In this document: piece after piece, positions 11,436 through 37,988 of the stretch | Layout: each line of letters opens with the position of its first letter | Numbering within the stretch: the stretch's first letter is position 1 | Assembly: GCA_026391835.1 (NCBI GenBank) | Contig: JAPLDF010000037.1 | Location: forward strand, 1-43,872 | Reading direction: 5' to 3' | Length of the DNA stretch: 43,872 nt | Origin: Bacteroidota bacterium | GTDB lineage: Bacteria > Bacteroidota > Bacteroidia > Bacteroidales > FEN-979 | Notes under the pieces: generated by a model | Seen by the model: only the letters and a program-made list of their open reading frames with translations | Database searches by the model: none | Told to the model about the DNA's origin: nothing | Position numbers and translations under genes: made by a program

Positions 11436-13916
11436 GTGAACGAGAATATCCAGGATTTAACCCAGCAGCAACAACCCGTTGATTACAAGATCATTCTTTT
11501 CAAATTTTACCGTTTCTGGTATTTCTTTGCCATTACCATTTTCATCGCCCTTATTGTTGCCTTCATTTTCAACAAGTACACAAAAGAGGTTTTTGAGGTA
11601 ACAACCACGGTGCTTGTCAAAGACAAATCGGAAAACAAAATAAATCCGCAGGACCTTCTGGGAATGGGACTGTTCAACAATATGCAGAACCTGCAGAATG
11701 AAATCGGCATCCTGTCGTCCTATACGCTTACTTACCGCACGGTCACCAAAATAGGATTCGAGGTTTCATACTTCACCGAAGAGCATTTTGTGACAAAGGA
11801 ACTCTACCTTGACAGCCCGTTCAAGGTGATCCTGGACACTTCAGTCCCGCAACCGGTAAACATGTTTTTTAAAATCAGGTTGCTCTCAAAAGAGAAGTTC
11901 AAACTTGAATCCAATGATGAATCCATCAAATTTTTCAACTTTTCAACCAGGAAAATGGTTGAGGACCGGAAGGAAAATGTTGTTGTAGACCAGACCTATT
12001 CATTCGGACAGGATATACAGTCGGGCCATTTCAAATTCAAGGTGGTCCTCAATGAAAAATTCGATCCGCAGGTCGACCTGAACCGGTCATTTTCATTCAT
12101 TTTCAAGAATTACGATGCCCTGGTGACAGAATTCAAGACATTCAATATTGAACCGATAAACAAGGAGGCTTCGATTGTAGAGATCAAGCTCAAAGGGGGC
12201 AATGTTGACAAGCTCGTGGAGTTTTTAAACAACCTCACCAAGGAGTACCTTGCAAAAGGGCTGGAAAAGAAAAATATTGTTGCTTCACGAACCATCGCAT
12301 TTATTGACAACGAGTTAAGAGGAATTACCGACTCGCTCAATGCTTCAGAAAAAGCCCTTATGCTTTTCAGGACCAACAAGGAGATCATGAACCTGAATGA
12401 TGAAGCCAAACAGGTTTTTGAAAAAATGATGCAGCTGCAGGACGAAAAGGCCATTCTCCTGGTTAAATCGAAGTACCTTCAGAATATGAAAGAGTATATC
12501 GAAAAGAACCAGAAATTTGATGAACTCATTGTTCCGGCTTCCATGGGCATTGAAAATACGGTACTGAATGATCTGACCATGCAGCTCACAAATCTGTATA
12601 TGAAGCGGACAGAAACATCGCAGTATTCCAAATCAAAGAACCCGAGCCTGATGGCAATTGATCTGCAGATCGCAACAACAAAAAATGCGTTGTATGAAAA
12701 TGTGAAAAGCGCCATCAATTCAAATGACATCGCCTTAAAAGAGGTTAACAACCGGGTGGCGGTCATCAATTCGCGCATCAGCAATCTTCCTGAAACACAA
12801 CGTGTACTATTCGGCATTGAGCGGAAGTTCAAACTCACCGATGCCATCTACACCTACCTGTTGCAGAAACGTTCGGAAGCCCAGATTTCGCAGGCTGCCA
12901 ATCTTTCCGACAACGAGGTGGTGGATGAGGCTTCAGCCATCGGGTTAAAGCCGGTTTTTCCGAAGAAGACACTGAATTACGTCATCGCCCTGATCCTGGG
13001 GATCCTGATCCCCATCATCTATATCTTTGGAAGGGACTATTTCAACGACAAGGTCATGGAAAGGGAGGATGTCGAAAAACTCACAAAACTCCCCATCGTC
13101 GGTCACATCATCCACAGCGACAAGCCAAGCACCGTGGTGGTGCTGGATTCCCCGAAATCCTCCATCGCCGAATCATTCAGGTCGGTGAGAACCAACATTA
13201 ACTACCTGCTGCAGGGCAAAGAAAAACAGACGGTCCTGATAACCGCCGACATGGTCAGTGCAGGAAAAACCTATATTTCCATCAACCTGGCGTTAATTTT
13301 TGCCATGTACGGCAAAAAAACGCTGCTGATGGGATTTGACTTGCGCAAGCCCAAAATTTTCGAGGACTTCGGCCTGACGAACAAGGAGGGCATCAGTTCA
13401 TATATCATCGGGAAAAGCAAACTTGAGGACATTGTCCAGTTTTCGGGTATCGACAATCTTGACATCATCATGTCGGGGCCGGTACCGCCGAACCCGGCCG
13501 AATTGATCGCCTCCCTGAAATGTTCCGAAATGTTTGACCGGCTGAAGGAAATATACGACTACATCATCATTGATACCCCGCCTGTGGGGCTGGTAACCGA
13601 TGCATTCCTGCTGATGAAGTATGCCGATGCCAACCTGTTCCTGGTCCGCCAGGGATATACCCATAAAAAAATATTCGGATCAATCATCCACGACATGGCA
13701 CAGCGGAATATTTCGAACCTGGCTATCCTGATCAACGATGTCAAGCTCAACCGGAGTTCATACGGATATGGTTACGGGTATGGATATGGATACGGATACG
13801 GGTATGGATACGGTTCGGGATATGGTTATGGCTATGGTTATGGATATTACTCGGATGACAAGGAAGCATCGAATAAGAGTAAAACATTTCTTCAGCGGGT
13901 ATTTGGAAAATCTTAG
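11436..13916 (+). CDS. Wzc-like polysaccharide co-polymerase and tyrosine kinase
   Basis: An 826-aa inner-membrane protein that controls chain length and export of a surface polysaccharide. It has an N-terminal Wzz domain with TM1 near residues 29-47, a long periplasmic coiled-coil region, TM2 near 512-530, and a cytosolic BY-kinase domain with Walker A (SAGKTYISIN), Walker A' (LLMGFDLRKPK) and Walker B (YIIIDTPPVG). The tyrosine cluster, normally a handful of Tyr, is here a Gly-Tyr tract with 15 tyrosines (DNA 13761-13850). GTG start at 11436. It is in one operon with the Wza-like gene; no glycosyltransferases or polymerase lie next to them, so the sugar assembly genes must be elsewhere. Confidence 0.93.
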   Translation: MNENIQDLTQQQQPVDYKIILFKFYRFWYFFAITIFIALIVAFIFNKYTKEVFEVTTTVLVKDKSENKINPQDLLGMGLFNNMQNLQNEIGILSSYTLTYRTVTKIGFEVSYFTEEHFVTKELYLDSPFKVILDTSVPQPVNMFFKIRLLSKEKFKLESNDESIKFFNFSTRKMVEDRKENVVVDQTYSFGQDIQSGHFKFKVVLNEKFDPQVDLNRSFSFIFKNYDALVTEFKTFNIEPINKEASIVEIKLKGGNVDKLVEFLNNLTKEYLAKGLEKKNIVASRTIAFIDNELRGITDSLNASEKALMLFRTNKEIMNLNDEAKQVFEKMMQLQDEKAILLVKSKYLQNMKEYIEKNQKFDELIVPASMGIENTVLNDLTMQLTNLYMKRTETSQYSKSKNPSLMAIDLQIATTKNALYENVKSAINSNDIALKEVNNRVAVINSRISNLPETQRVLFGIERKFKLTDAIYTYLLQKRSEAQISQAANLSDNEVVDEASAIGLKPVFPKKTLNYVIALILGILIPIIYIFGRDYFNDKVMEREDVEKLTKLPIVGHIIHSDKPSTVVVLDSPKSSIAESFRSVRTNINYLLQGKEKQTVLITADMVSAGKTYISINLALIFAMYGKKTLLMGFDLRKPKIFEDFGLTNKEGISSYIIGKSKLEDIVQFSGIDNLDIIMSGPVPPNPAELIASLKCSEMFDRLKEIYDYIIIDTPPVGLVTDAFLLMKYADANLFLVRQGYTHKKIFGSIIHDMAQRNISNLAILINDVKLNRSSYGYGYGYGYGYGYGYGYGSGYGYGYGYGYYSDDKEASNKSKTFLQRVFGKS
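13761..13850 (+). repeat. Hexameric TAY-GGN tandem tract encoding the Gly-Tyr tail of the Wzc-like kinase
   Basis: Fourteen Tyr-Gly codon pairs (one interrupted by Ser-Gly) end in Tyr-Tyr. Both Tyr codons and all four Gly codons occur, so the tract is kept as protein sequence rather than as a fresh DNA slippage product. Six-base indels would change the tyrosine count without a frameshift. Confidence 0.9.
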
Positions 13917-34031: not shown

Positions 34032-35453
34032 TTGAATAAGACATCCAGAAAATACATCATTCTCCGGGCCATTCTCCTGGGATTGACGGTTATTGCGATT
34101 GCCTTTTTCGTGACACGCAACCTGTACCACCGCGAGGAGGCCAAAAAAGATGCCCTTCGCCGGATCCGCGAACGTGGCTACCTGGTCGCCCTCACCGACG
34201 AAAACACACTCAACTACTTCATATACAAAGGAGAACCCATGGGATACCAGCTTGTCATGCTGGAATCTTTTGCCAAATACCTGGGTGTTCCCCTCAGGAT
34301 CATCGCCAGCAACGACATTTCAAAGCTGCAGTATTACATGCATTACAATGCCGCCGATCTCATCGCCCTCAATCACCCGATATCCGGGGATGGCAGGAAA
34401 CTCGTCAGGTTTTCAGCCCCGTTTGGCGAAACCCGGCTGGTGCTTGTCCAGGGAAAAGGACGCAACTTCAGAAAAGGGGAACCTGACATCATCACCTCCC
34501 TGAGCGACTTTCCGCCGGATACGGTATATGTGCGTAAAAACCCGTTCTTCACCTACCAATATCATGCATTTTATAAAAAAACAGGGAAAACGGCCATCCT
34601 TAAGGAAGAGACCGATATCTCACAGGAGGAGCTGATCCGGCGCGTATCGACCGGGAAAATCCGCTTTGCGATATGCCAGGAGAATGTGGCCATGATGTAC
34701 CACAGGTTTTACCGGAACCTCGATATTTCGGTGCTGGCTTTCCCCTTGTTTTCGTATGGATGGGGTGTGGGACTCTCCTCAGATTCCCTTCGCACCGAAG
34801 TTGACGCATGGCTCAGTGCTTACAAGGCTTCCCATGACCTGAAGAACACGTACCTTGAATACTTCGACAACCAGCGCATCGCCGGGTTCCTGCAAAGCGA
34901 CTATTTTTCGGTGACCAGCAACAAGCTTTCCCCTTTCGACGGTACCATCAGGGAGCAAAGCAAACTGGTGATGTGGGACTGGCGGCTGGTGGCCTCGCTG
35001 ATTTACCAGGAGTCGAATTTCAAGGCGGGGCTTACCTCCTCGCGAAGCGCCAGCGGGCTGATGCAGCTGATGCCTGAAACCGCTGCAAAGTTCGGTATCG
35101 ACAGCAATGCAACCCCTGCAAAACAAATTGCCGGGGGCGTGAGGTACCTGAAGTTTATCGACAAGCAGCTTCCCGATGACATTACCAGCCCGGTTGAAAG
35201 GATCTATTTTGTGCTGGCCTGTTACAACGTGGGCATCGGGAAAGTACTGGCGGCCAGGGAAAAAGCCGAAAAGTTCGGCAAAGACAAAAATAGGTGGAAC
35301 GGGCATGTGGACTACTACCTGTTGCGCCGTTCCAAAAAGGATCACGTTGCCAAAACCGACACCTCCGACGCCTACCCGATCGATTACAAAACCGAAGGGT
35401 TTGTGGATGACATTGTCAACCGCTACTATCATTACAAGAACCTGATCAAATAA
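34032..35453 (+). CDS. MltF-like membrane-bound lytic transglycosylase
   Basis: A 473-aa periplasmic enzyme anchored by an N-terminal helix (about 9-27). It has an extracellular solute-binding-like domain (family 3; RERGYLVALTDENTLNYFIYKGEPMGYQ) and a C-terminal SLT domain with catalytic Glu in YQESNFKAGLTSSRSASGLMQLMPETA and the ACYNVGIGKV block. This is the MltF arrangement. The start is a TTG at 34032; no ATG precedes the membrane helix. It lies 9 bp after the last permease gene and is probably the last gene of the efflux operon, which may help open the wall for the pump. Confidence 0.92.
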   Translation: MNKTSRKYIILRAILLGLTVIAIAFFVTRNLYHREEAKKDALRRIRERGYLVALTDENTLNYFIYKGEPMGYQLVMLESFAKYLGVPLRIIASNDISKLQYYMHYNAADLIALNHPISGDGRKLVRFSAPFGETRLVLVQGKGRNFRKGEPDIITSLSDFPPDTVYVRKNPFFTYQYHAFYKKTGKTAILKEETDISQEELIRRVSTGKIRFAICQENVAMMYHRFYRNLDISVLAFPLFSYGWGVGLSSDSLRTEVDAWLSAYKASHDLKNTYLEYFDNQRIAGFLQSDYFSVTSNKLSPFDGTIREQSKLVMWDWRLVASLIYQESNFKAGLTSSRSASGLMQLMPETAAKFGIDSNATPAKQIAGGVRYLKFIDKQLPDDITSPVERIYFVLACYNVGIGKVLAAREKAEKFGKDKNRWNGHVDYYLLRRSKKDHVAKTDTSDAYPIDYKTEGFVDDIVNRYYHYKNLIK

Positions 35454-35553
35454 ATTATACCGGGCTGTTACCCGGCACCATCTGCCGTGCATCCCGGGAG
35501 CATGTCGGGAGCACTATTTACCTTAAAGCAACGAATAAGCAAGGAAGAAGCAA

Positions 35554-35620
35554 GAAAGCATATAGAAAGCATATGGAAAGCATATGGAAAGATGCATGGA
35601 AGATGCATGGAAGATGCTAT
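35554..35620. repeat. 11-nt tandem array (GAAAGCATATG drifting to GAAGATGCATG)
   Basis: Six units are present: GAAAGCATATA, GAAAGCATATG twice, GAAAGATGCATG (12 nt), GAAGATGCATG, GAAGATGCTAT. It lies in the 237-bp gap between the MltF-like and SPFH genes. Upstream of it is a small hairpin CCGGG/CCCGG (about 35460-35475) without a T run. A 63-codon open frame crosses the array, but its sequence is just the repeat translated. Confidence 0.8.
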
Positions 35621-35690: not shown

Positions 35691-37988
35691 ATGGAAATAA
35701 CCTCAATCCTCCTGGTAGCAGCTGCCTGCGTTGCTGCTATTTTTTTGTTTATCCTCCTCTACAGTTCCATCCTGATCGTTGGCGGCAAGGAGATCAACAT
35801 CCTTGAACGGCGCTGGTTTGGGAAAGAGATGCCAAAGGACCGCATCTTTGCCATGAGCAATGAAATCGGTGTGCAGGCCAGGGCCAAAGGCCCCGGGTTG
35901 TACCTGCTGATCCCGTTTATTTACAAGACAAAAAAACAGGAATTTACCGTTATCGGCAACAATGAAATCGGGGTGGTCATCTCTGTGGATGGAAACCCTG
36001 TGCCGTCAGGCAAGATCTTTGCCAGGAACGTCGATTGCAACCTTTTCCAGGACGGCGAGCTGTTCCTCACCAATGGCGGTGAAAAAGGCGTACAGATCCA
36101 GCTCCTGCCCCCGGGAATCTACCGGATAAACCCGTTCCTGTTCAACCTGAAGATCGAGCCGGTCACCGTGATCGATGAAAACCAGGTTGGCATCGTCGAA
36201 TCCATCGACGGCGCCCCGATCCCCGCCGGGCGGATCTTCGGGAAAGTGGTTGACTGCGACCTTTACCAGGACGGGGAAGCCTTCCTGAAAAACGGCGGTG
36301 AAAAAGGGCCGCAGATCAAGGCGCTGCCCCCGGGCAATTACCGTATCAACCCGCTGCTGTTCAAGATCAAAAAAGTCAATGTTACCATGATCGACAAAGG
36401 ACAGATCGGGATCATCACCTCCCAGGATGGCCGGCAGATCAGCGGGGGACGGCTGCTTGCGAAAACCGTTCCAGGTCATAGCAATTATGAAGACGGGGAG
36501 ACCTTCCTGAACAACGGCGGGGAAAAAGGCCCCCAGGTTTCCATTTTGTTGCCGGGCAAATACCGTATCAACACCGACCTTTTCAAGGTTGAAATCAAGG
36601 AAACCATCATCATTCCCGACCAGAAAGTGGGGATTGTCGTGGCACGCGACGGCCAGCCGTTGCCGGAAACAGAATTTGTAGCCAAGCCGATCCCCGGGCA
36701 CAACAACTTCCAGGATGTCACCAGGTTCCTTGAAAACGGCGGGCAGCGCGGGCCACAGTTCGATGTGCTGAAACCGGGAACCTATTATATCAACTCATTG
36801 ATGTTCAGCGTAGAGCTCGACAGTGTCGCCGTGGTCGAACGCGGCCAGGTGGCCGTGCTGGTTTCAAATGTCGGCAAGGAACCGGTCCAGATCAGGGAGA
36901 TTGCTGAAAAAATTGCCGAAGCCGAGAAATCGGAACATCGCACCGATACAACCACCACGGAAGTTGTCAATGCGGAAATGCGCATCGATGTCGGCATCGA
37001 GCGCTATGTCGTACCCAAAGGCTACCGGGGCATCCAGCAGGAAGTTGCCGGGCCGGGCATCTATTACCTCAACCGCAGAGCCTACATCGCCTACGTTGTT
37101 GATACCACCAACATTACCATCGACTGGGATGAAAACCAGAGCACCCCGTTCGATCCGCTGGTGGTGGTTTCGAACGACGGTTTCGAGATCAAGGTCGCCG
37201 TCAAGGTGGTCATCCGTGTCCGTCCCGACCAGTCGCCATACATGGTCGCCAAGATCGGTTCCATCCAGAACCTCATCGAACATGTCATCCACCCGATGAT
37301 CGACTCCAGCTTCCGCAACCAGGCCTCCACCACCTCGGCCATGAGTTTCATGCAAAACCGCCACGAAGAGCAGCAGAAAGCCGAAGACCGTGCCCGCCGC
37401 GAACTGGAAAAATACCATGTCGAACTGGTTTCAGTGCTCATCTGCCAGATCCAGCTGCCCGAAAACCTGATGAAAACCCAAACCGACCGGATTATTGCCC
37501 AGCAGGAGCAGGCCATGTACGTTGAACAGCAAAAGGCGCAGCAAACCCGCATTGCCATGGCGAAAACCACTGCCGAGGCCGACAAGCAGGTTGACCTTGT
37601 ACAGTCGGAAATAGAGGTGAAAATCGCCGAAAACCGCAAGCTGAAGGCCATCAAGGAGGCCGAAGGCAAGGGCGAGTCGACCCGCCTTGAAAAAGCCGGT
37701 GAGGCATCGGGCATCGAATCGATCGGGAAGGCAAAAGGAGTTGCCATTCTTGCCGAAGGAACCGCCACCGCCGAAGCGTATGAAAAACAACGGCAGGCCA
37801 TCGGGCAGGAGGGTGTCATCGCTGTCCAGGTAGCTGAAAAGCTTGCCAGCGGCAACGTGAAGGTCGTTCCCGACACCCTGGTTACCAGCAATGACGGCGG
37901 GGGCGGACTGGGACAGCTGCTTGGCGCCTATCTGACCAAAAAGATCGTGGAACCAAAAGAATCTTTAAAGCCGGCAAGAGACCTTTAA
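35691..37988 (+). CDS. Band-7/SPFH (flotillin-like) protein with four tandem beta-rich modules
   Basis: A 765-aa protein with an N-terminal membrane helix (about 5-29). A half module (EIGVQARAKGPGLYLLIP) is followed by four ~74-residue modules (about 85-380), each with a (Q/K/E)(V/I)GIV...DG start, an NGG(E/Q)(K/R)G motif at residues 128, 201, 275 and 349, and a PG(I/N/K/T)Y.IN..(L/M)F end. Another half module (GYRGIQQEVAGPGIYYLN) leads into an SPFH domain (about 485-600), a long Ala/Glu-rich coiled coil (about 555-705) and a Gly-rich C-terminus. SPFH proteins make ring or cage assemblies on membranes. The order of repeats, SPFH and long helix recalls the major vault protein, which however has no membrane helix. 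Substrate or role unknown. Confidence 0.85.
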   Translation: MEITSILLVAAACVAAIFLFILLYSSILIVGGKEINILERRWFGKEMPKDRIFAMSNEIGVQARAKGPGLYLLIPFIYKTKKQEFTVIGNNEIGVVISVDGNPVPSGKIFARNVDCNLFQDGELFLTNGGEKGVQIQLLPPGIYRINPFLFNLKIEPVTVIDENQVGIVESIDGAPIPAGRIFGKVVDCDLYQDGEAFLKNGGEKGPQIKALPPGNYRINPLLFKIKKVNVTMIDKGQIGIITSQDGRQISGGRLLAKTVPGHSNYEDGETFLNNGGEKGPQVSILLPGKYRINTDLFKVEIKETIIIPDQKVGIVVARDGQPLPETEFVAKPIPGHNNFQDVTRFLENGGQRGPQFDVLKPGTYYINSLMFSVELDSVAVVERGQVAVLVSNVGKEPVQIREIAEKIAEAEKSEHRTDTTTTEVVNAEMRIDVGIERYVVPKGYRGIQQEVAGPGIYYLNRRAYIAYVVDTTNITIDWDENQSTPFDPLVVVSNDGFEIKVAVKVVIRVRPDQSPYMVAKIGSIQNLIEHVIHPMIDSSFRNQASTTSAMSFMQNRHEEQQKAEDRARRELEKYHVELVSVLICQIQLPENLMKTQTDRIIAQQEQAMYVEQQKAQQTRIAMAKTTAEADKQVDLVQSEIEVKIAENRKLKAIKEAEGKGESTRLEKAGEASGIESIGKAKGVAILAEGTATAEAYEKQRQAIGQEGVIAVQVAEKLASGNVKVVPDTLVTSNDGGGGLGQLLGAYLTKKIVEPKESLKPARDL

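Follow-up and report, generated by a model that had tools for sequence, protein, structure and literature searches.

Architecture of the protein

The window analyzed here is the whole 43,872-nucleotide stretch of contig JAPLDF010000037.1 (assembly GCA_026391835.1) from Bacteroidota bacterium (FEN-979). This study was concerned with its open reading frame at 35691-37988, which encodes an SPFH protein with a stack of tandem modules (Table 1). An earlier note, made from the DNA letters alone, had read this layout as that of a membrane-anchored vault protein, and most of the parts it listed were recovered in our analysis: the membrane helix by hydropathy, four repeats of about 74 residues with the NGG motif at exactly the positions given, the SPFH domain, and a predicted coil helix followed by a Gly-rich tail. 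The half modules that it placed at both ends stood only in part. Extra units are present at both ends, but they are better read as divergent modules, M0 and M5, than as halves.

Table 1. Parts of the SPFH protein and their positions in the window.
Feature	Residues	Positions	Strand	Basis
SPFH protein with tandem SPFH1/vault-like modules	765 in total	35691..37988	+	
N-terminal membrane helix	~3-32	35697..35786	+	hydropathy; predicted structure: helix 2-26
M0, short divergent module right after the membrane helix	28-84	35772..35942	+	strands 34-40, 61-66, 69-72, 78-84
M1, canonical module	NGG at 128	35943..36161	+	motif, module HMM
M2, canonical module	NGG at 201	36162..36380	+	motif, module HMM
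M3, canonical module	NGG at 275	36381..36602	+	motif, module HMM, predicted structure
M4, canonical module	NGG at 349	36603..36824	+	motif, module HMM, predicted structure
M5, last and divergent module, forming the SPFH1 half of the SPFH domain	379-475	36825..37115	+	module HMM, predicted structure
Charged low-confidence insert within M5	~398-440	~36882-37010	+	
SPFH2 part of the Band_7 domain	490-588	37158..37454	+	Pfam, predicted structure
CC1, long coil helix	591-659	37461..37667	+	predicted structure; helix end at low confidence
CC2-like helices	674-719	37710..37847	+	predicted structure
Gly-rich C-terminal tail	735-765	37893..37985	+	sequence; predicted helix 741-753

The canonical modules M1 to M4 are 73-74 residues each and share 37-64% pairwise identity, the upper value being that of M1 against M2. 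Judged from the sequences, four copies at this level of identity are far beyond chance. Each matches a module hidden Markov model (HMM) at 1e-28 to 9e-32, the model having been built from the family with the window protein's own modules included. M5 also matches this model (6e-18), is split by the charged insert and continues into the SPFH domain. M0 has the strand pattern in the predicted structure and lacks the module helix; in the window protein it gave no match to the module HMM, and weak partial matches were found at its position in some relatives. The full predicted model aligns to the major vault protein (MVP) starting at residue 25, a value that describes the alignment range only.

Pfam Band_7 (PF01145) covers residues 441-617 (E 1.4e-20; 74.5 bits against a cut-off of 23.6) and was matched by all 66 family members scanned. 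The hydrophobic helix ahead of this domain is, by sequence prediction, a membrane anchor. Credible matches in Pfam, NCBIfam and PDB sequence searches were confined to the SPFH and coil part. Just before the Gly-rich tail, P727 and D728 are invariant in A2. The genome itself contains one match to the window protein and four to Band_7, the other three of which lie in frames of 299-320 residues.

Distribution and growth of the module stack

The family was found across Bacteroidota, where the earlier note had suggested looking for it. At E<=1e-10, 45 of 395 Bacteroidota genomes match; by frame length, 24 of the matches are module-type proteins (634-769 residues) and 21 are SPFH proteins of 302-432 residues, matched through the SPFH region. 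At E<=1e-20, and with the central genome included in each count, matches were found in 9 of 247 genomes of the window's order, in 10 of 198 around a Geobacter genome and in 6 of 145 around an Akkermansiaceae genome. A scan of a species-genome collection gave 180 candidate stretches, of which 99 were relatives, and the best 80 of these were analyzed. Canonical modules, counted without M5, number three in 34 of these 80, four in 20 and five in 25, and one locus is truncated. The phylum and order searches added 22 two-module proteins, and the Geobacter- and Akkermansiaceae-centred searches added L166 and L167, which are 562-569 residues long with a single canonical module. By sequence, then, family members differ in the number of wall segments, from about one to five canonical modules. 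Geomonas oryzae S43 and Paludibacterium purpuratum CECT 8976 carry five-module genes and Lucifera butyrica a three-module gene, and two-module genes are present in 18 genomes of the same class from the Bacteroidota search. In L185 and L186, from the Akkermansiaceae-centred search, about 70-85 partly Pro-rich residues lie between the first and second module matches. No published description of the family was found in a literature search, which hardly covers preprints.

A tree of 118 rows was built from the C-terminal half only, with the modules left out; second-piece and truncated loci were also left out. It carries 11 phylum labels: Bacteroidota, Ignavibacteriota, Acidobacteriota, Thermodesulfobacteriota, Myxococcota, Nitrospirota, Spirochaetota, Bacillota, Verrucomicrobiota, Planctomycetota and Pseudomonadota. 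Single placements may be wrong because many records are metagenome bins. Module number changes 6 times on this tree, against a minimum of 5 and a shuffled mean of 66, in a count that mislabels L187: a length threshold gave it 0 modules, whereas it carries a single canonical module together with a split last module. The window clade, 20 rows with four modules, sits beside one long-branched three-module protein inside an otherwise three-module group. The 30 five-module rows form a single clade (support 100) that crosses phyla, and a four-module protein on a long branch in Bacillota (L116) is separate from the window clade. The deep order of the tree is unsure because of the long branches L187, L183, L120, L116 and L184.

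The place of the duplication in the window protein was located module by module. Comparison with three relatives that have three modules each pairs M3, M4 and M5 of the window protein with their second, third and last modules, and both M1 and M2 with the first. In two five-module proteins, the counterparts of M1 and M2 are again the first to third modules. These matches indicate growth at the membrane-proximal end, which is, on the sequence comparison, where the wall was lengthened. Median coil length is 130 residues with three modules, 130 with four and 134 with five; it is 163 in the two-module group and 109 in the one-module pair.

Likeness to the vault wall

The earlier note proposed that the protein is laid out like a vault protein, and the monomer prediction bears this out. 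First, all of the top Foldseek ranks were MVP chains, ranks 1-12 with the full model and ranks 1-14 with a model of the modules only. Secondly, a run of four modules superposes on a run of four MVP repeats. Third, the solved SPFH structures listed, flotillin included, can be aligned to the module model over just 40-45 residues, in keeping with the note's remark that a repeat stack is absent from ordinary flotillins. Parts of M1, M2 and the coil are at poor confidence in the predicted structure. The note would have given up its reading had the repeats been unstacked or unlike MVP or SPFH modules; the predicted structure showed the opposite, tandem repeats of the MVP wall fold stacked end to end. 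A module fold and end-to-end stacking like those of the vault wall are supported by these models, and on prediction the protein is an SPFH member built like the vault wall, which we do not class as an MVP.

Sequence similarity to MVP, for which the note had proposed profile searches of the repeat region, did not appear. The Pfam MVP_shoulder (PF11978) and Vault models matched 0 of 66 family members at E<=1, and MVP_shoulder and Vault_3 matched all three bacterial MVPs scanned as a positive control. PDB searches with the window family by phmmer and hmmsearch gave no MVP match, and one bacterial MVP searched in the same database matched MVP at 1e-17 to 2e-16. Comparison of the modules or the whole family with eight bacterial MVPs by hhalign gave probabilities of 1.4% or less, but this test is too blunt to decide homology because it missed the shared SPFH domain as well. 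The link to MVP is structural only, through the predicted models, with no sequence homology detectable in these searches. PF11978 found nothing in 21 relatives or in the 395 Bacteroidota genomes, which is no evidence of absence because 14 control genomes were silent too. Around a Myxococcales centre it did identify bacterial MVP genes (L127-L137), in 10 of 140 genomes; control genomes were silent there as well. HflC, the FtsH modulator, was rejected as an identity for the window protein (NCBIfam TIGR01932, 14.9 bits against a cut-off of 134.4).

Like MVP, both eukaryotic and bacterial, the window protein runs from tandem beta modules through an SPFH-like shoulder to a long coil cap. Unlike MVP, it carries a membrane helix at the N-terminus, and it matches MVP neither in sequence nor in Pfam. 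Its modules, of 73-74 residues, include an additional short helix and a loop, and there are six of them against nine MVP domains (PMC13100048). MVP is described there as having no N-terminal membrane motif and as pairing two half-vaults through its N-terminal modules; the same 2026 paper contrasts membrane-anchored SPFH half-cages with the vault and calls MVP domains unique to the vault. Solved SPFH assemblies are described as domed and mostly on membranes, with the vault as an exception that closes on itself (PMC12624060, PMC13100048). HflK/C, QmcA, prohibitin, Erlin, stomatin and flotillin share the membrane anchor or association, the SPFH domain (a Band_7 match with the SPFH fold in the predicted structure) and the coil with the window protein, but the family differs from them in having one to five canonical modules and M0 between anchor and SPFH domain. 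Prokaryotic SPFH subfamilies 1-12 are, like the family, bacterial, mostly with N-terminal membrane regions (predicted in ten of twelve), and patchily distributed, with lateral transfer (PMC2636767). The main text of that paper does not contain the words "vault" or "tandem"; the two-module Bacteroidota proteins may belong to one of its small undocumented subfamilies.

The likeness could reflect common descent, with the modules homologous to vault wall repeats through a multi-module SPFH ancestor shared with MVP and the anchor lost in soluble vaults. The order of parts, the predicted fold and the stacking are the same, and MVPs do exist in bacteria. We nevertheless consider this doubtful in view of the negative Pfam comparison, the hhalign result, blunt as it is, and the fit of a single module core to the start of the prohibitin SPFH domain at 0.8 Å. 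Given that fit, it is at least as likely that SPFH1 was duplicated independently in each lineage. The comparison suggests that the vault wall consists of repeated SPFH1 units.

Proposed cage, alternatives and gene neighbours

We consider it probable that the protein is a subunit of a membrane-anchored SPFH cage with a tandemly duplicated SPFH1 subdomain. The N-terminal helix would plant each subunit in the inner membrane. Since the anchor precedes the module stack, the stack would stand between the membrane and the SPFH shoulder. Six stacked SPFH1-like beta modules (M0-M5) would form one stave of a cylindrical wall, SPFH2 would form the shoulder, and the Ala/Glu coil and C-terminal tail would close the top. 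About 22-24 copies by our estimate, packed laterally into a ring, would make a half-vault-shaped chamber standing waist-down on the membrane, with module number fixing its height and coil length its diameter. The published relation of copy number to CC1 length (PMC12624060) gives about 22 copies for a CC1 of 69 residues, the end of this helix being uncertain. By analogy with HflK/C, which surrounds FtsH, such a chamber may fence off a membrane patch and sequester certain membrane proteins, whose bulky soluble domains would find room beside the tall wall.

The side of the membrane was considered from the charges around the helix. The N-flank ahead of it has no lysine or arginine in 91 of 110 rows; QmcA has 0 such residues and HflK and HflC have 2. 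This leans weakly to a cytoplasmic cage and C-terminus. QmcA's own orientation is taken here as general background. The same cage standing in the periplasm, as HflK/C does, seems unlikely on this flank count, although the 15 residues after the helix do not discriminate (4 lysines or arginines in HflK and HflC, 2 in QmcA and mostly 3-5 in the family). A surplus of these residues after the helix compared with before it (116 of 118 rows) was set aside as topology evidence because HflK and HflC score alike.

Less probable again is a flotillin-like scaffold that forms clusters or small oligomers and no closed tall cage, its modules acting as a mere spacer rod between membrane and SPFH domain: a single-chain prediction cannot show lateral contacts, and the M5 insert and the poorly predicted parts of M1, M2 and the coil leave room for flexibility, but all SPFH complexes of known structure are described as sharing a general domed form (PMC12624060), the modules superpose on vault wall repeats and not on generic beta rods, and coil length hardly varies among members with three to five modules.

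The family appears to combine a membrane anchor with stacked modules of the vault fold. It offers a bacterial setting in which the purpose of a tall wall can be studied, and its one-to-five-module series is a natural test of wall height against cargo. If the cage is real, chamber height would be an evolvable parameter, as the stack grows unit by unit. The wider proposal, on which we stand close to evenly divided and slightly on the side of doubt, is that bacteria build membrane-planted half-vaults whose SPFH1-stack wall is lengthened at the membrane end, and that the vault wall is the same taken further, with the anchor lost, which would mark out a path leading from SPFH domes on membranes to free vaults.

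Gene neighbours, which the note had also raised, gave no common partner. The relatives' neighbour genes were compared by clustering. Across clades no gene recurs, whether in the named loci, with flanks that reach at most 10 kb and are often shorter, or in a further 20 loci with two modules; local clades do share neighbours. None of these neighbours points to a cargo. The window neighbours include ABC transporters with ABC-2 subunits, a protein with SLT and SBP_bac_3 domains, a TonB-plug protein, a histidine kinase and a LytTR regulator; these have no visible link to the SPFH protein. An operon of the SPFH-NfeD type was rejected, with none of the ten scanned neighbouring proteins of the window matching NfeD, as was a defence role, with no PADLOC match.

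The gene directly upstream (34032-35453) fuses a solute-binding domain to an SLT transglycosylase domain, and we take its product to be MltF-like. Between it and the SPFH gene are three short tandem arrays of 11-base units that adjoin one another (35526-35617). Another tandem array, of 6/18/24-base units, is found at 13760-13847, near the end of the open reading frame at 11436-13916. In Geomonas (L093, L096 and L100), a 559-residue protein, presumably a paraquat-inducible/MCE-type membrane protein, is encoded upstream of the five-module gene, at a distance of about 4.2-4.6 kb.
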